Source of the DNA: Pseudomonas sp. Q1-7
GTDB taxonomy: Bacteria > Pseudomonadota > Gammaproteobacteria > Pseudomonadales > Pseudomonadaceae
Length of the DNA stretch: 64,000 nt
Reading direction: 5' to 3'
Assembly (NCBI RefSeq): GCF_028010285.1
Contig: NZ_CP116304.1
Span: forward strand, 2,558,501 to 2,622,500
The notes under the pieces were generated by a model. The model was not told where the DNA came from, did no database searches, and saw only the letters and a list, made by a program, of their open reading frames with translations. The position numbers and the translations under genes were made by a program. This document shows positions 41,153-55,457 of this stretch, piece by piece. Each line of letters opens with the position of its first letter. Positions within the stretch are counted from its first letter, which is position 1.

Positions 41153-42076
41153 TCAGGGCGGCAGCGGGATGTCCGGCATGGCATGGCGGGGCATGATCGC
41201 ACCGGGGTGGCCGATTACCGCCGCGGCCAGTCGATGGCCGTGCTCCGCCGCCGTCTGGACCGCAAGGCCCCGGCTGCGGCTCGCCAGGTAGGCCGCGGCG
41301 AAGGCGTCTCCCGCTGCGCAGCTGTCCACCACCTGGGCCACGGGTTGTGCGGGCACCTCCAGCCATTGCCGCGCGTTGGCGATCAGGCAAGGCTGCGCCC
41401 CGCACTTGACCACCACCTCGCCGCAGCCCAGCGCCAGGCCGAGGGCGGCGGCTTCCTCGGCGGCCTGTTCGTCGTCGTACAGTTGGCATTGGTCGTCCAG
41501 CGTGAGCAGGGCAATGTCGGCCAAGGCCAGGACGCGTTCATGGACCCGTCGCGCTTCATGGGCGGACCACAGCGCGGGGCGGAAGTTGTTGTCGAACCAG
41601 AGTCGACCACCCGAGGCGGTGAAGCCGGAAAGTGCCCGCAGCAGGGCTTCGCGGCGTGGCGCCGGGAACAGCGCCAGGCTGATGCCGGACAGGTAGAGCG
41701 CGTCGGTGTGCGTACGGTCCAGCCAGCGTTCCCAGTCGATATCGCCGGCGAAGTGCTGGCGGGCCGCGCTGGTGTCGCGCCAATAGAGGAAGCTGCGCTC
41801 TCCGCGGGCATCCACTTCGACCAGGTAAAGGCCGGGCTGCCGGCCTGGCAGTCGGGCGATGCGCCCGGTCTCCAGGCCTTCGTCCCGCCAGTGGTGCAGC
41901 AGTTCGTCGCTCAGGCGGTCGTCACCGAGCGCGCTGAGGTAGTGCACCCGGTCGTCGCGACCGGCCAGCAGCCGTGCCATGTACAGCGCGGTGTTGAGGG
42001 TGTCGCCACCGAAGCGGCGGCACAGGGGCTGGCCGCTCAGTTCGACCATGGCCTCTCCCAGGCAGGCGATATGCAT
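41153..42076 (-). CDS. PfkB-family sugar kinase (2-keto-3-deoxygluconate kinase-like)
   Basis: 307 residues. N-terminal CLGEAMVEL and GGDTLNTALYMARLL are typical of KDG kinases (KdgK), as is FDNNFRPALW. The C-terminal signature is DSCAAGDAFAAAYLA with base Asp257; GAGD is altered to AAGD, a variant seen in some KdgK proteins. It would phosphorylate 2-keto-3-deoxygluconate or a close relative. It is the last gene of the deacylase-RidA-kinase part of a minus-strand cluster. Confidence 0.88.
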   Translation of the reverse strand: MHIACLGEAMVELSGQPLCRRFGGDTLNTALYMARLLAGRDDRVHYLSALGDDRLSDELLHHWRDEGLETGRIARLPGRQPGLYLVEVDARGERSFLYWRDTSAARQHFAGDIDWERWLDRTHTDALYLSGISLALFPAPRREALLRALSGFTASGGRLWFDNNFRPALWSAHEARRVHERVLALADIALLTLDDQCQLYDDEQAAEEAAALGLALGCGEVVVKCGAQPCLIANARQWLEVPAQPVAQVVDSCAAGDAFAAAYLASRSRGLAVQTAAEHGHRLAAAVIGHPGAIMPRHAMPDIPLPP

Positions 42077-42090
42077 CTCGTCCTCCTTGC

Positions 42091-42474
42091 TCAGGGTGCC
42101 CGGTAGGCGACGCAGTCCACTTCGACCTTACAGTCGATGACCATGCTCGACACCACGCAGGCGCGGGCCGGTGGATGGGCGCCGAAGTAGCGCTGGAACA
42201 CCTGGTTGAAGGCGGCGAAGTCACGCGGGTCGTCCAGCCAGACGCCGCAGCGCACCACATGCTCGGGCCCGTAGCCGGCTTCCTCGAGAATGGCCAGCAG
42301 GTTGCGGATGCACTGATGGGCCTGGGCGGCGATGCCGCCCTCGACCACCTGGCCGTCGCGCATCGGCGTCTGTCCGGAAACGAACAGCCAGCCGTCGGCC
42401 TGTACGGCCCGGGCAAAGGGCAGGGACTGGCCGCCGGTGCCTTGGGCGATGCCGTGACGTTGCAGTGTTTTCAT
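42091..42474 (-). CDS. RidA-family enamine/imine deaminase
   Basis: 127 residues. RidA fold with FVSGQTPMRDGQVV, HVVRCGVWLDD and the conserved Arg in PPARACVVSSMV that binds the substrate carboxylate, then CKVEVDCVAYR. RidA proteins hydrolyse enamine/imine intermediates released by PLP-dependent lyases. A lyase of that kind is encoded in the same cluster (46241-47512). The gene overlaps the deacylase by four bases. Confidence 0.9.
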   Translation of the reverse strand: MKTLQRHGIAQGTGGQSLPFARAVQADGWLFVSGQTPMRDGQVVEGGIAAQAHQCIRNLLAILEEAGYGPEHVVRCGVWLDDPRDFAAFNQVFQRYFGAHPPARACVVSSMVIDCKVEVDCVAYRAP

Positions 42475-43943
42475 CGGATGTTTTCCTCGGTTGCGGGGGG
42501 ATTCGCGCCAGCGCGGGGCAGGAAGCGCCCGGCGCGGGCCTGGCAGGGCTGGCCGTCCTGGTAGGACAGCACGCCGTTGACCCAGACCGCGCGGATGCCG
42601 GCGGCGGGCTGGATGGGGTCGTGGAAGCGCGCGGTGTCGGCGATGGCGTGCGGGTCGAACAGCACCAGGTCGGCCCAGTAGCCGGGCGCGATCAGGCCGC
42701 GCTGCTCCAGGGCGAAGCGGCTGGCGCTGAGGCCGGTCATCTTGCGCACTGCGTCTTCGAGGGTGAGCAGCCCCAGATCGCGGCTGTAGTGGCCCAGCAC
42801 GCGGGGAAAGGTGCCCCACAGGCGTGGATGCGGGCGTGGGTCTTCGGGCAGGCCGTCGGAGCCGATCATGCTCAGTGGGTGGGCGAGGATGCGCTGCACG
42901 TCGGCTTCGCTCATGCAGTGGTACACGGCGCCGGCCGGTTGCAGGCGGCGGGCGGCTTCCAGCAAGGGCAGACGCCAGTCGTCGGCGATGGCGGCCAGGG
43001 TCCTGCCGGCCATTTCCGGGTGCGCCCGGGACCAGGTGATGAGGATGTCGAAGTCGGAGGTGACCTGCTTCAGGTCCAGGGTGGACGAGCTGGCCGAGTA
43101 GGGATAGCAGTCGCAGCCGACCGGCTGGTGCCGAAGTGCCTGTTCCAGGCTGGCGAGCACCTCCGCGCTGCGTCCCCAGTTGCCCGCGCCGGCGCACTTG
43201 AGGTGGGAGACGATCAGCGTGCAACCGGCGTGGCGGGCGATGGCGCAGGCCTCGTCGAGGGCGCCGAGGATGTCGTCGAACTCATCGCGCAGGTGGGTGG
43301 CGTAGAGGCCACCGTGAACGGCCAGTTCCTCGGCCAACTGGCAGACTTCGTCGGTACTGGCGGCGGCCGCCGTCGCGTAGGCCAGGCCGGTGCTGAGCCC
43401 CAGGGCGCCGTGCATGAGGCTGTCGGCCAGTTGCGCGCGCATGGCCGCGATTTCCGCCGGGCTGGCGACTCGCTCGAGTCGGTCCAGGTGATTGCTGCGC
43501 AGGGCGGTGTGCCCAACCAGAGCGGCGACGTTGACGGCCGGTGCTGCCGCGTCCACCGCCGCGCGGTAGTCGGCGAAGCGCGGATAGGCGAAGGCGGACG
43601 CGGGGCCCAGCAGGTTCATCGGGTCCGGCGGGGCGCCCGTCAGGCTAACTGGCGCCGCGCTGATGCCGCAGTTGCCCACGACCACGGTGGTCACGCCCTG
43701 GCTCAGCTTGGGCAGCATGTCCGGTTGGCGGATCACGACGGTGTCGTCATGGGTGTGCGCGTCGATGAAGCCCGGTGCCAGTACCAGACCCTCGGCCTCC
43801 ACTCGCTGGTCGGCGCTGGCGTTGCCGGCTTCGCCAAGCAGGGCGATTCGGCCCTGGCGGAGACCGACGTCGGCGACGTAGCGGGGCTGGCCGCTGCCGT
43901 CGATGAGGGTCGCCCGATGGATAAGGGTATCGAACCTGGCCAT
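42471..43943 (-). CDS. N-acyl-D-amino-acid deacylase (D-aminoacylase) family amidohydrolase
   Basis: 490 residues. Metal-binding residues of D-aminoacylases are present: HTHDD (His63, His65), the family-specific GNCGISAAP (Cys92), ATHLRDE, SHLKCAG and IGSDGLP (Asp). It removes an acyl group from N-acyl-D-amino acids or structurally similar compounds. The neighbours (KDG-type kinase, GntP permease) suggest N-acetyl-D-glucosaminate as a possible natural substrate. Overlaps ridA by ATGA. Confidence 0.88.
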   Translation of the reverse strand: MARFDTLIHRATLIDGSGQPRYVADVGLRQGRIALLGEAGNASADQRVEAEGLVLAPGFIDAHTHDDTVVIRQPDMLPKLSQGVTTVVVGNCGISAAPVSLTGAPPDPMNLLGPASAFAYPRFADYRAAVDAAAPAVNVAALVGHTALRSNHLDRLERVASPAEIAAMRAQLADSLMHGALGLSTGLAYATAAAASTDEVCQLAEELAVHGGLYATHLRDEFDDILGALDEACAIARHAGCTLIVSHLKCAGAGNWGRSAEVLASLEQALRHQPVGCDCYPYSASSSTLDLKQVTSDFDILITWSRAHPEMAGRTLAAIADDWRLPLLEAARRLQPAGAVYHCMSEADVQRILAHPLSMIGSDGLPEDPRPHPRLWGTFPRVLGHYSRDLGLLTLEDAVRKMTGLSASRFALEQRGLIAPGYWADLVLFDPHAIADTARFHDPIQPAAGIRAVWVNGVLSYQDGQPCQARAGRFLPRAGANPPATEENIR

Positions 43944-43946
43944 GTT

Positions 43947-44807
43947 TCAATCTCCCAGGGGTAACCAGTCTTCACCCTGGCGCAGATCGTCCAGGGCCAG
44001 TTTCACCCGGCGCAGCAGCTCTTGGCTGGTTTCGGGATTGCGCAGCGCGGTCTCGGTGGCCAGCAGGTCGATGGCCAGCAACATGCCGTAGCGCGCGGCG
44101 GTGGGTTTGTAGATGAAGTCGGTTTCGGCGAGGACGATGGGCAGCAGGGTGTCGGCCATCGCGGCCAGCGGGCTGCCCGCGCGGGTGATGGCCAGCAGCC
44201 GGGCGCCATAGGCGCGAGCGAGGCGCGTGCAGGCGAGAAGTTCCGGGGGGAGGCCGCTGAGCGACAGCACGATCAGCAGGTCCTGCGGGCCCAGCGTGGC
44301 GGCGGCCATGCGCATCAGCACCGGGTCATGGCAGGCGGTCGCCTGGTAGCCCAGGCGCACCAGGCGGTACTGCATTTCCGCTGCCAGCAGGGTGGAACAG
44401 CCGCCCATGCCGAAGATGTGGATCTTCCCGGCCGAAACGATCAGATCGACCGCCGTGCCGAAGCGCGCCTCGTCGAATGCCGCCAGGTGGCGATGCAGGC
44501 TCTGCTCGATGTCGCCGACCATCCGGCTGAAGAACTCCGGCGGCTTGGCGGCCGGCGCCTCGTCGAGGAAACGGGCGCCCACGGCGCTGGCCCTCGCCAG
44601 CCGAAGGCGCAGTTCGCGCAGGTCGCCGCAGTCCATCAGGCGCGCGAAGCGGGACATCGCCGCCTTGCTCACGCCAGCCTTGGCGGCCAGTTGGTCGATG
44701 CTGGCGGACGCGGCGAACTCCACGTCGTCCAGGATGGCCTCGGCGACTTTCGCCGGATTGCCCCGCAGGCGATCGCGGCGACCGCGGATGAGGTAGAGGA
44801 TGTCCAT
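43947..44807 (-). CDS. RpiR/MurR-family transcriptional regulator
   Basis: 286 residues. N-terminal helix-turn-helix (ASIDQLAAKAGVSKAAMSRFARLM) and C-terminal SIS sugar-phosphate-binding domain (IHIFGMGGCSTLLAAEMQYRL, LSLSGLPPELLAC). Such regulators usually sense phosphorylated sugars; HexR, of the same family, senses KDPG. It sits in the middle of the cluster, one base after the permease gene, so it is probably autoregulated with the operon. Confidence 0.9.
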   Translation of the reverse strand: MDILYLIRGRRDRLRGNPAKVAEAILDDVEFAASASIDQLAAKAGVSKAAMSRFARLMDCGDLRELRLRLARASAVGARFLDEAPAAKPPEFFSRMVGDIEQSLHRHLAAFDEARFGTAVDLIVSAGKIHIFGMGGCSTLLAAEMQYRLVRLGYQATACHDPVLMRMAAATLGPQDLLIVLSLSGLPPELLACTRLARAYGARLLAITRAGSPLAAMADTLLPIVLAETDFIYKPTAARYGMLLAIDLLATETALRNPETSQELLRRVKLALDDLRQGEDWLPLGD

Positions 44808-44808
44808 C

Positions 44809-46161
44809 TCAGAGCATCCTCGCCAGGCCGAGGGTGAAGGCGAAAGCCACCAGGGAGATCAGGGTTTCCAGCACCGTCCAGGTCTGCAGGGTCTGCACCA
44901 CGGTCATGTCGAAGTACTCCTTGATCAGCCAGAAGCCGCCATCGTTGACATGGGAAAGGATCAGCGAGCCGGCCCCGGTGGCCAGCACCAGCAGCTCCGG
45001 ATGGGGGTAGCCGCTGGCCAGGGCGATGGGGGCGACGATGCCGGCGGCGGTGGTCATGGCCACGGTGGCCGAGCCCGTGGCGACGCGCATGAGCGCGGCC
45101 ACCAGCCAGCCCAGGATCAGCGGCGAAAGGTCGAAACGGGCCGACAGCTCGACGATCTCCCGTGTCACCCCGGTTTCGATGAGGATGCGGTTCAGCCCAC
45201 CGCCGGCCCCGACCAGCAGGGTGATGGCGGCGGTGGGCGCCAGGCATTCGGTGCTGAAACGGAGAATGGCGTTGCGGTTGAAGCCCCTGGCCAGGCCCAG
45301 GGTCCAGAAGCTCAGCAGGGTCGCAATCAGCAGCGCGATTACCGAGTTGCCGACGAAGTGCAACAGCTGGTTGGCGGCCGAGCCGGGTGTGCTCAGCAGG
45401 TCGGCCCAGCCGCCCAGCAGCATCAGCCCCACGGGGAGCAGGACGGTGCCCAGCGTGACGCCGAAGCCGGGCAGATCGGCCACCCGCGTGCCGGTTTCGG
45501 TGAATTGCGCCGCCACGGCGTTGTGCGCCGGCAGGCGGATACGCGGCGCCACCAGGCGGGCGAACAAGGGGCCGGCGATGACGGCGGTGGGGATGCCGAC
45601 CAGGGTGGCATAGAACACGGTCTTGCCGACCTGCGCCGCGTATTCCCCCACGGCCAGCATGGCCGCGGGGTGGGGCGGCACCAGGCCGTGGACGACGGAA
45701 AGTCCCGCCACCATCGGCAGGCCGGTCAGCAGGATGGAGACGCCCAGGCGTCTGGCGATGGTGAAGGCGATCGGCACCAGCAGGACGAAGCCCACTTCGA
45801 AGAACAGCGGCAGGCCACACACGAAGGCGATGCTGACCATGGCCCAGTGGGCGTTCTTCTCGCCGAAGCGCTCGATCAGGGTACGGGCGATGCGTTCGGC
45901 ACCCCCCGACTCGGCCATCATCTTGCCGAGCATGGTGCCCAGCGCCACCACCAGGGCGATGTGGCCAAGGGTCTTGCCGACACCAGCTTCATAGGCGGCC
46001 ATGATGTCGCCGGCGGGCATCCGCGCCGCCAGGGCGAGGCCGATGGACACCAGGGTGATGACGATGAAGGGGTTGATCCGGTATCGCGCGATCAGCAGCA
46101 CCAGCGCGATGATCGCCAGCGCGGCGTAGATCAGCAGCGGACTTCCTGCGGCCGGGGTCAT
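44809..46161 (-). CDS. GntP-family permease (gluconate:H+ symporter type)
   Basis: 450 residues with about twelve to fourteen membrane segments. Family marks: GIGKTLGHIA-like AGVGKTLGHIALVVALGTML, GLPLFFEVGFVLLVP, HGLVPPHPAAML and HVNDGGFWLIKEYF. GntP members import gluconate and other aldonates or hydroxy/amino acids. ATG 46161 has GAGGAGT upstream; the open frame extends nine codons further. Located next to the RpiR regulator, it probably imports the substrate of the cluster. Confidence 0.9.
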   Translation of the reverse strand: MTPAAGSPLLIYAALAIIALVLLIARYRINPFIVITLVSIGLALAARMPAGDIMAAYEAGVGKTLGHIALVVALGTMLGKMMAESGGAERIARTLIERFGEKNAHWAMVSIAFVCGLPLFFEVGFVLLVPIAFTIARRLGVSILLTGLPMVAGLSVVHGLVPPHPAAMLAVGEYAAQVGKTVFYATLVGIPTAVIAGPLFARLVAPRIRLPAHNAVAAQFTETGTRVADLPGFGVTLGTVLLPVGLMLLGGWADLLSTPGSAANQLLHFVGNSVIALLIATLLSFWTLGLARGFNRNAILRFSTECLAPTAAITLLVGAGGGLNRILIETGVTREIVELSARFDLSPLILGWLVAALMRVATGSATVAMTTAAGIVAPIALASGYPHPELLVLATGAGSLILSHVNDGGFWLIKEYFDMTVVQTLQTWTVLETLISLVAFAFTLGLARML

Positions 46162-46240
46162 GAGCGGTACTCCTCTGTCTCCAGGCAAAGGGATGGCCTC
46201 CCACCTCCGGTCGGGGGCGGGTGATCACGGGGTTGGGGGG

Positions 46241-47512
46241 CTAGAACAGCGTTTCGATGGCGCCGGTTACCCGGTAGTCGTCATCCACCAGCAGCAGTTG
46301 CCGCCACTTGTCGAAGGTCAGGCAGGGGTGGGAAATGTCGAACGCCAGCATGTCGCCCACCCGCAGGTCGGCGTTGTCGGGAATCGCCATGAAGGCGTGT
46401 TGGTCCATCATTTTCGTCACCCGCCAGTCCGCTGGCGCCGGGGCGGGGCCAGCGCCGGTGCCAGGCCTGTGGTGCAGCGTGGCGAGGGGCAGGCCAGCGT
46501 CGAAGGCGGCGTCACGCTTGCCCATGGCGATGATCGCCAGGCCGGGCTCGGGCCGCGATTGCACGTTGGCCCAGAGTTGCAGGGCGGGCAGCAGGCTGCG
46601 GCCCATTTCGCGAGCCACCGCGTTGTGCGCCTGGATGCGTCGTTCGGCCTCGCGGTAGATGCCGGCATCGTGGGTGAGGTAGCAGCCGGGGCGCAGGATC
46701 ACGTTCAGGGGCTGGCCGATGCTCTGTTGGGCGAACTCCTCGGCGACGACATCGAACCAGGCCGAACCCGCGCCGGAGAGGATGACGTCCGGCTCGGCGA
46801 AGCGGCCTTCGGCGGCCAACTGGCGGGTTCGCTCCAGGACATGGCGGAGCAGTTGGCGGATCTGGGTTTCGTCCTGCAGCACCCCTTCATAGAGTTCGGT
46901 CCCGACCAGCCGCACCGACTGCGGCCAGCGTCGAATGGCGCTCAGGGCTTCGTGTTCCTGTTCGATGGAGCGCAGGCCGGTGCGACCGCCGGCGACGCCG
47001 TATTCGAGCAGCACCCGTATCGTCTGTCCGGCCTCGGCGAAGTGGCGGCCGAGGGCGTCGATGTTGGTGGCAGAGTCCACCAGGCAACAGAAGCTGAAAT
47101 CCGGGTCGCGCTGCAGGTCGGAAACGATGGCCATGTTGGCCTTGCCCACCAGTTGGTTGGCCAGCAGGACGCGGCGTATGCCATGGGCGTGGGCCGCCTG
47201 GACCTGCGGGGCGGTGGCGAGGGTGATGCCCCAGGCGCCGTGCTGGAGCTGCAAATGGAAGAGCGCGGGGCTCATGGTGGTCTTGCCATGAGGGGCCAAC
47301 TGCACGCCGTAGTGGCGGATGAACCGGCTCATCCAGGCCAGGTTGTGCTCGATGCGGCTCTGGAGCAGCACCGCCACCGGCAAGCTGACGTCCTCGTCAA
47401 GTATTCGCCAGCCCAGCGCGCCTACCGCGTCGAGCGTGCAATCCGGAGCCACGCGGCCCAGTCCTTTGGTGCGCTGGTTCAACATCGGTACGTGATTCTT
47501 GTTTTCAGCCAC
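46241..47512 (-). CDS. Fold-type III PLP enzyme (D-serine dehydratase/D-threonine aldolase-like)
   Basis: 423 residues. Alanine-racemase-like barrel with PLP lysine in APHGKTTMSP (Lys77), VLLANQLV, and a C-terminal domain with the zinc ligands of eukaryotic-type D-serine dehydratase (HPC in FDISHPCLTFDKW). It should catalyse ammonia loss or retro-aldol cleavage on a D-configured 2-amino-3-hydroxy acid. D-glucosaminate is such a compound, and its dehydration gives 2-keto-3-deoxygluconate, the expected substrate of the kinase in this cluster. First gene of the cluster. Confidence 0.85.
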   Translation of the reverse strand: MAENKNHVPMLNQRTKGLGRVAPDCTLDAVGALGWRILDEDVSLPVAVLLQSRIEHNLAWMSRFIRHYGVQLAPHGKTTMSPALFHLQLQHGAWGITLATAPQVQAAHAHGIRRVLLANQLVGKANMAIVSDLQRDPDFSFCCLVDSATNIDALGRHFAEAGQTIRVLLEYGVAGGRTGLRSIEQEHEALSAIRRWPQSVRLVGTELYEGVLQDETQIRQLLRHVLERTRQLAAEGRFAEPDVILSGAGSAWFDVVAEEFAQQSIGQPLNVILRPGCYLTHDAGIYREAERRIQAHNAVAREMGRSLLPALQLWANVQSRPEPGLAIIAMGKRDAAFDAGLPLATLHHRPGTGAGPAPAPADWRVTKMMDQHAFMAIPDNADLRVGDMLAFDISHPCLTFDKWRQLLLVDDDYRVTGAIETLF

Positions 47513-47844
47513 AGGTGCGTCCTCCCTGGTTTCCTGAAAATAAGTATCACCAGAGCCCGGAGCCGGCCAGTGGCGGGATTGGGTGCGGCAGCCTGTGGGG
47601 TTAGTCGGTTATCCAGGTTGCCCCGCGGTGGCCTGATCCGGACTGGCGCCAGGCGCCTCGCACCTTTCGCCAGCCCAGGGGGTGACCAGGGATGACCAGG
47701 CGGCGGAAACATCCTGTTCCCGCAGGGCGATTTGGGCGGTGGTATTCAGATGAGGGCCGGGCGCGTGGCGAAAATTTCCCGCTGCCACTTCCCGGTTTCA
47801 GTGGGAAAAAGGGGCGTAATCCCAAGGGGTAGGCGACGGAGTTC
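47513..47844. other. Intergenic region upstream of the PLP-enzyme cluster
   Basis: About 330 bases without a credible gene. It should carry the promoter of the catabolic cluster and possibly the RpiR-type operator. Short GC-rich repeats (TGGCGCCAGGCGCC around 47643) are visible but no operator can be named. Confidence 0.4.
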
Positions 47845-51754: not shown

Positions 51755-51844
51755 GGTGAGGTGTCCGAGCGGTTGAAGGAGCACGCCTGGAAAGTGTGTA
51801 TACGGGAAACCGTATCGAGGGTTCGAATCCCTCCCTCACCGCCA
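51755..51844 (+). tRNA. tRNA-Ser (anticodon GGA)
   Basis: 90 bases including the encoded CCA. Acceptor arms GGTGAGG and CCTCACC pair fully; the anticodon loop reads CTGGAAA with GGA in the centre; a long variable arm (TACGGGAAACCGTA) marks a class II tRNA-Ser; the T loop is GGTTCGAATCC. It reads UCC/UCU serine codons. Its 3' end is a classical integrase target and decayed integrase DNA lies downstream. Confidence 0.96.
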
Positions 51845-54924: not shown

Positions 54925-55457
54925 GGTGAAACTCCTTTCGTTAAGAGGAGCCGCCACGCTTCGCGGCCAAGCGAAGGTAAGGTGGCAGCTGTACGCGGGT
55001 TGGCCGACCGGGACGAAAGGCACCCGGCACACCCGAAGGTGTCCCACGCACAGCTGCCATAGCTCGCGCCACGGACGGAAAGTTGCCCATGGCGAGAGAT
55101 AGAACGCTGTTGCGCCTTTCGTTGATGCGACCGGCCAAGGTCGGCCACGGGATTGACCGTGGCGGGCCGGACTATAGGCGTCCGCGCTGCCCCTGGCAAT
55201 GCCGCGTGCGCTGTGCTGCTTCTCGTGCTCAGGGCGCCTCCTCAGCGACGGCCGCGCGCTCGGGGGTGGCCCGATGGGGTCGGCCCACAACGACATCGAT
55301 CAGGCGTCATCCCTGTACTCCAAGGCTCGTGCCATCCGGGGGCTGAAGGGTGGTTATCGGCCGATGGAAGGCCTGGGCTTCTTCGTGAGGGGACGTAACC
55401 TTTCGTATAACACCTATGTCGCCACCACCGGGGTGATCGCCGACGGGAGCTGTGCCC
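54925..55457. other. Intergenic accessory stretch with structured leader
   Basis: About 530 bases. Holds the inverted repeat TGGCAGCTGT/ACAGCTGCCA (54983-54992 and 55050-55059) upstream of the small helical protein gene. A plus-strand ORF of 63 codons from ATG 55274 to 55465 is open but lacks a ribosome site and I do not call it. No known family seen. Confidence 0.4.

Follow-up and report, generated by a model that had tools for sequence, protein, structure and literature searches.

The 64,000-nucleotide stretch of Pseudomonas sp. Q1-7 DNA analysed here (the window; contig NZ_CP116304.1, positions 2,558,501 to 2,622,500) contains six open reading frames (ORFs), all on the minus strand between positions 41153 and 47512, which we name after the ong genes for N-acetyl-D-glucosaminate (GlcNAc1A) use in the marine bacterium Pseudoalteromonas prydzensis. 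The original prediction that these are six one-strand genes of named families is borne out by the ORF list and by matches to Pfam and NCBIfam models. In order of transcription, ongC encodes a fold-type III pyridoxal phosphate (PLP)-dependent ammonia-lyase (46241..47512; D-ser_dehydrat and Ala_racemase_N) predicted to convert D-glucosaminate to 2-keto-3-deoxygluconate (KDG) and ammonia; gntP a GntP-family permease (44809..46188; GntP_permease and TIGR00791), the proposed GlcNAc1A importer; rpiR an OngR-like RpiR/SIS regulator (43947..44807; HTH_6 and SIS); ongB a predicted GlcNAc1A deacetylase (42471..43943; Amidohydro_3); ridA an OngD-like RidA-family protein (42091..42474; Ribonuc_L-PSP); and kdgK a KdgK-like PfkB kinase (41153..42076). 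The genes are tightly packed, and the intergenic gaps of 52, 1, 3, -4 and 14 bp, computed with the listed GntP start, indicate a single operon. The start of ridA was corrected to the ATG at 42474 from 42471, so that an ATGA overlaps the ongB stop, while for gntP position 46161 is a likelier start than the TTG at 46188, given that homology begins at residue 10 in all four genus relatives with GntP. A scan for a sigma-70 consensus promoter gave no match. The same six-gene order recurs in four genus relatives (G297, G300, G309 and G301, the last with a broken ongB) and in Andreprevotia (L012), and the arrangement is therefore not one of chance.

Relationship to the ong cluster

The main text of PMC9537276 describes transcriptomics, deletions and assays which show that OngB, OngC and KdgK of P. 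prydzensis turn GlcNAc1A into KDG 6-phosphate, that the RidA protein OngD is needed for growth, and that OngR is a repressor. The same text takes at least four co-occurring homologues with >30% identity to strain ACAM 620 as the mark of an ong cluster, and already lists such clusters in terrestrial Klebsiella, Pseudomonas, Cellvibrio and one Achromobacter. As a stand-in for ACAM 620 we used the cluster of P. shioyasakiensis (L213), which has a matching gene layout and an OngB 75% identical to that of P. prydzensis (PpOngB). Five of the window proteins together show 34-59% identity to this cluster (OngD/RidA 59%, OngB 55%, OngC 43%, OngR 40% and KdgK 34%), placing the operon among the ong clusters by the published definition. 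The two systems also share the expected chemistry. In contrast, the window operon has GntP where the ACAM 620 cluster, as described there, has the SSS importer OngIT (SSS having been assessed at the level of the operon), and it lacks the GH20 enzyme OngA and the TonB-dependent receptor. The gene order differs as well, with kdgK following ridA and gntP lying between ongC and rpiR in the window. A further trait of ong clusters, a co-occurring AA10 lytic polysaccharide monooxygenase (LPMO), is present: the 5.78 Mb single-contig genome encodes one LPMO_10 protein, a GbpA-like polypeptide of 501 aa with LPMO_10, GbpA_2 and GbpA_D3 domains, far from the operon (L004:1408-2913).

The glucosaminate system described in PMC9529869 likewise leads from glucosaminate through 2-keto-3-deoxygluconate 6-phosphate (KDPG) to the Entner-Doudoroff pathway, as proposed for the window. 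However, it takes up its substrate by a phosphotransferase system (PTS), acts on a phosphorylated form and relies on a lyase from another family, and the portion of that article consulted makes no mention of a deacetylase step. A mutant-fitness study (PMC9007349) was set aside as support, the glucosamine route in the part consulted being that of NagX, with glucosaminate not named there.

Signature of the putative deacetylase

The solved structures closest to the window OngB are, from the best match downwards, 9g5m (60% identity; a literature search with this code found no paper), PpOngB (9kb1 and 9kb3; 54% to 9kb1), D-aminoacylases (51% to 1m7j) and the N-acyl-D-glutamate deacylase 3gip. The subtype V metal site and the catalytic aspartate are retained as Cys92, His217, His247 and Asp363, corresponding to Cys97, His222, His252 and Asp368 of PpOngB, and are invariant in our four-row alignment. 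According to the available text of PMC12017989, Ser292 and Gln298 of PpOngB bind sugar hydroxyls, whereas in D-aminoacylases these positions are occupied by Thr and by Leu or Arg, and the pair is reported to set specificity for GlcNAc1A versus N-acetyl-D-amino acids. PpOngB and two homologues are described there as active on GlcNAc1A only, among the substrates tried, with N-acetyl-D-amino acids not attacked. The window protein has both residues (Ser287 and Gln293), and also keeps Ala193, Glu226, Ala256, Ser290 and Ser291 (PpOngB numbers here and below). The hydrophobic pocket of the AfDam type, seen in the alignment of 1m7j as Phe193, Met256, Thr292 and a residue other than Gln at 298, is replaced by Ala, Ala, Ser and Gln. 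Beyond the shared pocket we noted a difference at position 348, which is Cys in the window protein versus Gly in PpOngB.

To place this signature in a wider context we scanned named genomes and examined the best 80 loci of 526 confirmed matches, on which all tallies of 80 loci below rest; tallies of neighbouring genes are lower bounds where contigs end. Among the 77 loci from which OngB was extracted (L046, L052 and L061 were left out), 75 carry Ser292 together with Gln298, and only L081 and L082 do not. For a control, the D-aminoacylase 1m7j was searched against 293 genomes of the order, with a match in 159 at E up to 0.001, and 18 genomes of the genus were searched with the window OngB to add relatives. 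From the stronger hits, rather than from all hits, 19 regions were picked by hand (13 from the first search and six from the second), one of which (G299) holds only a 71-residue fragment, leaving 18 for comparison. Both signature residues are present in all 13 regions that contain at least two of ongC, rpiR, ridA, gntP and SSS, while one or both are lacking in all five regions that contain none of these genes. Given this 13/13 versus 0/5 split, the signature residues and the gene cluster appear to have a tendency to travel together.

We built a maximum-likelihood tree with 49 rows drawn from the named-genome and control sets (BbDam was left out), in which the window OngB groups with PpOngB and 9g5m, apart from 1m7j. 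It lies in a 22-row group (support 99/97) comprising two genus relatives, Pseudomonas, Burkholderiales, Andreprevotia, Stenotrophomonas, Sphingomonas, Acidobacteria and an Armatimonadetes metagenome-assembled genome. This group is nested in a 41-row OngB group (97/97) with PpOngB, 9g5m, which adjoins Klebsiella oxytoca (L065), and representatives of Vibrionaceae, enterics and Halomonadaceae. An Endozoicomonas locus (L079) falls just outside the larger group with weak support (85/21).

Putative importer, lyase and kinase, and candidate operator

The window permease matches GntP_permease with an E-value of 1.4e-148 and scores 455.9 bits, over the cut-off, with TIGR00791, as against 302.1 bits with the DsdX model (cut-off 618). 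The family named in the original prediction thus stands, while its role as the GlcNAc1A importer is one that we infer from position and family, since the proven importer, which deletion showed to be required for growth on this compound, is the SSS symporter OngIT (PMC9537276, main text). Among the 80 loci, GntP occurs in 36, SSS in 17 and both in none. This segregation follows the tree: in the 22-row group we found GntP in 16 rows, an oligopeptide-type ABC system in three, no recognised importer in three and SSS in none, versus SSS in 14, no recognised importer in four and GntP in none of the 18 loci that are not part of it yet belong to, or adjoin, the OngB group (a tally that leaves out the protein chains PpOngB and 9g5m). 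Fisher tests take no account of relatedness and were given no weight. A GntP-type cluster was also read in Cupriavidus metallidurans CH34 (L214). In one genus relative (G294) an ABC system takes the place of GntP, adjoining a fadB-like gene as in the window, and is 76-92% identical to that of an Achromobacter locus (L033); the other flank was judged by eye. At a Pseudomonas sp. GM21 locus (L019:8487-9932), where no gntP or rpiR was found, a transporter that looks SulP-like by eye is situated immediately upstream of an ongB.

The window lyase contains a PHGKT motif and a His395-x-Cys397 pair, which is present in 56/56 aligned OngC-like proteins. The available text of PMC4401734 gives the metal ligands as His/Cys in D-serine dehydratase and His/Asp in D-threonine aldolase, and elimination is therefore the expected reaction of OngC. 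The nearest solved lyase, PDB 3gwq (E 1.7e-154 over window OngC residues 12-423), is labelled 'D-serine deaminase'; known here by that label alone, it is probably an OngC-type enzyme. The fetched stretch of the Endozoicomonas locus L079 yielded no OngC, and a PLP-dependent lyase of the DgaE family (L079:8062-9189; TIGR01437, 166.7 bits against a cut-off of 385.3) lies near ongB. It is possible that this protein is a non-homologous replacement of OngC acting on unphosphorylated glucosaminate, which makes it an independent pointer to glucosaminate as the product of OngB. Together with the importer swapped in situ in G294, this lyase in a locus lacking OngC suggests a modular assembly of the pathway.

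The best NCBIfam model for the window kinase is by far KdgK (NF052444; E 1.1e-96, 323.8 bits; next model 100.9 bits), which sustains the KdgK-like assignment of the original prediction at the level of family. Kinases of the same kind in L055, L079 and L176 likewise fall under the 400-bit cut-off of this model, at 380-384 bits. Among the 80 loci a PfkB-family kinase occurs in 21, a DGOK-family (2-keto-3-deoxygalactonate kinase) gene in seven and either in 26, and an eda-like gene is found in 16. These neighbours favour an aldonate route, as catabolism of D-amino acids would need neither.

We observed a palindrome-like motif of 15 bp that occurs twice at the start of ongC. Site 1 (TGATACTTATTTTCA; 47535..47549, minus strand) is upstream of the gene, where TGRTACTTRTTTTCA is kept in all six operon-bearing members of the genus within upstream DNA that is otherwise poorly alignable. 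Site 2 (47493..47507, plus strand) is an inverted copy with one mismatch to the pattern, located within ongC codons 2-7; it is seen with small differences in all six genus members, and protein coding may constrain it. In the whole genome site 1 is the only exact match to TGRTACTTRTTTTCA and site 2 the only one with a single mismatch. A regulon extending beyond the operon, notably to the LPMO, was rejected, the eight genomic sites with two mismatches being no more than chance (12 hits in a reversed control). Outside the genus, we searched the upstream regions of the 80 loci, 79 of which were usable. Given that intergenic DNA tends to be AT-rich, enrichment over a background rate was not trusted, and 300 shuffled patterns and the reversed pattern served as controls. 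At up to three mismatches 24 of the 79 loci have a site (shuffled mean 3.4, maximum 17; reversed 4) and 55 have none; at up to two mismatches 12 do (shuffled mean 0.29, maximum 4; reversed 1). These loci are in part close relatives, including several Cupriavidus and several enterics, and the counts are not independent. The sites lie between divergent ongC and rpiR in Cupriavidus and Ralstonia, and between ongC and ongB in enterics. On this conservation we regard the 15-bp sites as candidate OngR operators.

Proposed pathway and alternatives

Taken together, the operon is very probably a GntP-type ong operon for GlcNAc1A, a reading favoured by the experimental proof of the pathway in the marine bacterium with the homologous cluster. 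GntP would import the aldonate, and OngB would remove its acetate to give D-glucosaminate, a D-amino acid. The PLP- and metal-dependent OngC would then eliminate the 3-hydroxyl and free ammonia to yield KDG, with RidA predicted to hydrolyse the reactive enamine/imine. KdgK would form KDPG, which a chromosomal KDPG aldolase could split into pyruvate and glyceraldehyde-3-phosphate, while the RpiR protein may repress the operon from the two 15-bp sites. The genome encodes three proteins of the KDPG/KHG-aldolase family, one of them, judged by eye, beside zwf and hexR. This route, from GlcNAc acid import through deacylation and deamination to KDG, KDPG and the Entner-Doudoroff pathway, had been put forward from the DNA alone, and finds support in the homology to the proven pathway (PMC9537276, main text), the OngB residues and the aldolase genes. 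The pathway itself being already published, the claim is less new than it was first rated; what is added is the GntP-type lineage, its apparently exchangeable parts, a genomic background where neither GH18 nor GH20 was found, and the candidate operator.

Several observations weigh against this reading. The main text of PMC9537276 reports that D-serine and D-threonine are further substrates of the P. prydzensis OngC. DsdX, which carries D-serine, is itself a member of the GntP family, and the substrate can therefore not be settled from the lyase and the permease by themselves. The available texts of PMC9537276, PMC12017989 and PMC11653859 contain no demonstration of GlcNAc1A transport by a GntP protein; the word GntP is absent from the main texts of the first and last of these, and a GntP-type cluster may be in print elsewhere. 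The window kinase is below the cut-off of its model and only 34% identical to the Pseudoalteromonas kinase, and 54 of the 80 loci show no sugar-acid kinase in the stretch, some contigs ending early; 19 of these 54 show only gntP-rpiR-ongB and 14 only ongC, rpiR, ongB and ridA. Two loci (L081 and L082) have ongC- and/or rpiR-like neighbours despite Thr/His at the signature sites, and one row without the signature (G130a) falls inside the 41-row OngB group, so that loss of the signature seems possible. The correspondence between neighbourhood, tree and signature is thus imperfect. Finally, the upstream region of ongC in Pseudoalteromonas L213 gave no match to the operator motif.

Among the alternatives, an operon mainly for free D-glucosaminate, with the deacetylase as an accessory, is unlikely. 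It draws on three genomes from a second genus in the family (G290, G147 and G251), where an ongC-like gene (46-49% identity) sits at a locus separate from ongB and is adjoined by RidA and a KdgK-like kinase (by eye, the families having been checked in G290 only). The ongB loci of G290 and G147 contain gntP and rpiR and lack ongC, ridA and kdgK, so that deamination and deacetylation can be separate modules. Separate loci of this kind (L176, L177 and L178), one in each of three genomes from another genus in the family, combine an ongC-like gene with genes for RidA, a KdgK-like kinase and an IclR-looking regulator (by eye; RidA and kinase families checked in L176), with ABC-transporter-looking genes beside two of them, also by eye, and are possibly a stand-alone D-glucosaminate module. 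In the window, however, all six genes are in one tightly packed operon, and ongB and ongC co-occur in the same six of 18 genus genomes.

Catabolism of N-acyl-D-amino acids, in which a D-aminoacylase would free D-serine or D-threonine for the lyase, with GntP as a DsdX-like carrier, is quite improbable. The 51% identity to 1m7j, the label of 3gwq, the reported action of OngC on D-serine and D-threonine and the D-aminoacylase label of the homologue in nine of 20 listed plasmid records speak for it. Against these stand the signature residues of the window OngB, the reported inactivity of PpOngB and its two homologues on N-acetyl-D-amino acids, the KdgK-like kinase, which is needless for D-serine or D-threonine, and the five homologues without the full signature that also lack this neighbourhood. 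The GntP and KdgK families being promiscuous and a DGOK-family gene occurring in seven of the 80 loci (family checked in L065 and L079), like chemistry on another 2-acetamido-aldonate such as N-acetyl-D-galactosaminate, via 2-keto-3-deoxygalactonate and its 6-phosphate, is conceivable but very improbable, as the window kinase is PfkB/KdgK-like rather than DGOK, and Glu226, reported to bind the C4 hydroxyl in PpOngB, is kept, though 1m7j has it too.

For the preferred GlcNAc1A operon, searches of the whole genome found no GH18 and no GH20, and therefore no OngA (GH3, GH84 and other such families were not searched); GH19 was represented only by a fragment below the cut-off (21.2 versus 25.5 bits), and no NagA exceeded its cut-off (best 24.3 bits). 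Given that no GH18 or GH20 was found, the operon probably serves to scavenge free amino-aldonates and not to digest chitin in full. The idea that the bacterium makes its own GlcNAc1A with a membrane pyrroloquinoline quinone (PQQ) glucose dehydrogenase was rejected for now, the best score being 103 bits against a cut-off of 832.65. There is about an even chance that GntP-type ong operons form a separate, largely non-marine lineage that handles amino-aldonates with no need to hydrolyse chitin. On that view, bacteria with no chitinase, hexosaminidase or NagA would use free GlcNAc1A or glucosaminate from others or from their own LPMO, OngR would act on a pair of 15-bp operator sites (TGRTA-N5-TWTCA-like), and the importer (GntP, SSS or ABC), kinase (PfkB or DGOK) and lyase (OngC or DgaE-like) would be exchangeable. 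A GntP importer in a genome without GH18 or GH20 suggests that the pathway can exist independently of chitin digestion, and the source of the free GlcNAc1A or glucosaminate becomes a directly testable question. Moreover, OngB-type deacetylases are labelled D-aminoacylase in Pseudoalteromonas and Klebsiella records, and the use of oxidized amino sugars is therefore probably under-counted; the residue signature, neighbourhood and candidate operator offer a way to re-annotate such loci.

Within the genus, ongC is found at >70% identity in six of the 18 genomes, five of which have an intact ongB. In the sixth (G301, L163) ongB is in two overlapping pieces in different frames, and the ongB fragment of G299 (L164) lies in a stretch where the other five genes were not found; both remnants reflect either decay or assembly error. 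In eight of the 12 genomes without the cluster the flanking fadB-like and amidotransferase genes are 0.93-1.36 kb apart, versus 7.6 kb in the window, the fetched flank in the other four being too short to tell. The operon thus appears as a patchy block in the genus, at one shared site in the cases read.

Homologues of the OngB/D-aminoacylase family (E up to 1e-100) were also encountered in 29 plasmid records. Many of those listed are megaplasmids, and Klebsiella plasmids of 37 kb and 270 kb are among them; the weaker of these homologues may be true D-aminoacylases. Elsewhere in the window, a C4 antisense RNA (84.7 bits, gathering threshold 45) and a tRNA, at 54978-55064 (minus strand) and 51755-51841 (plus strand), suggest a prophage or phage-like element near the operon.

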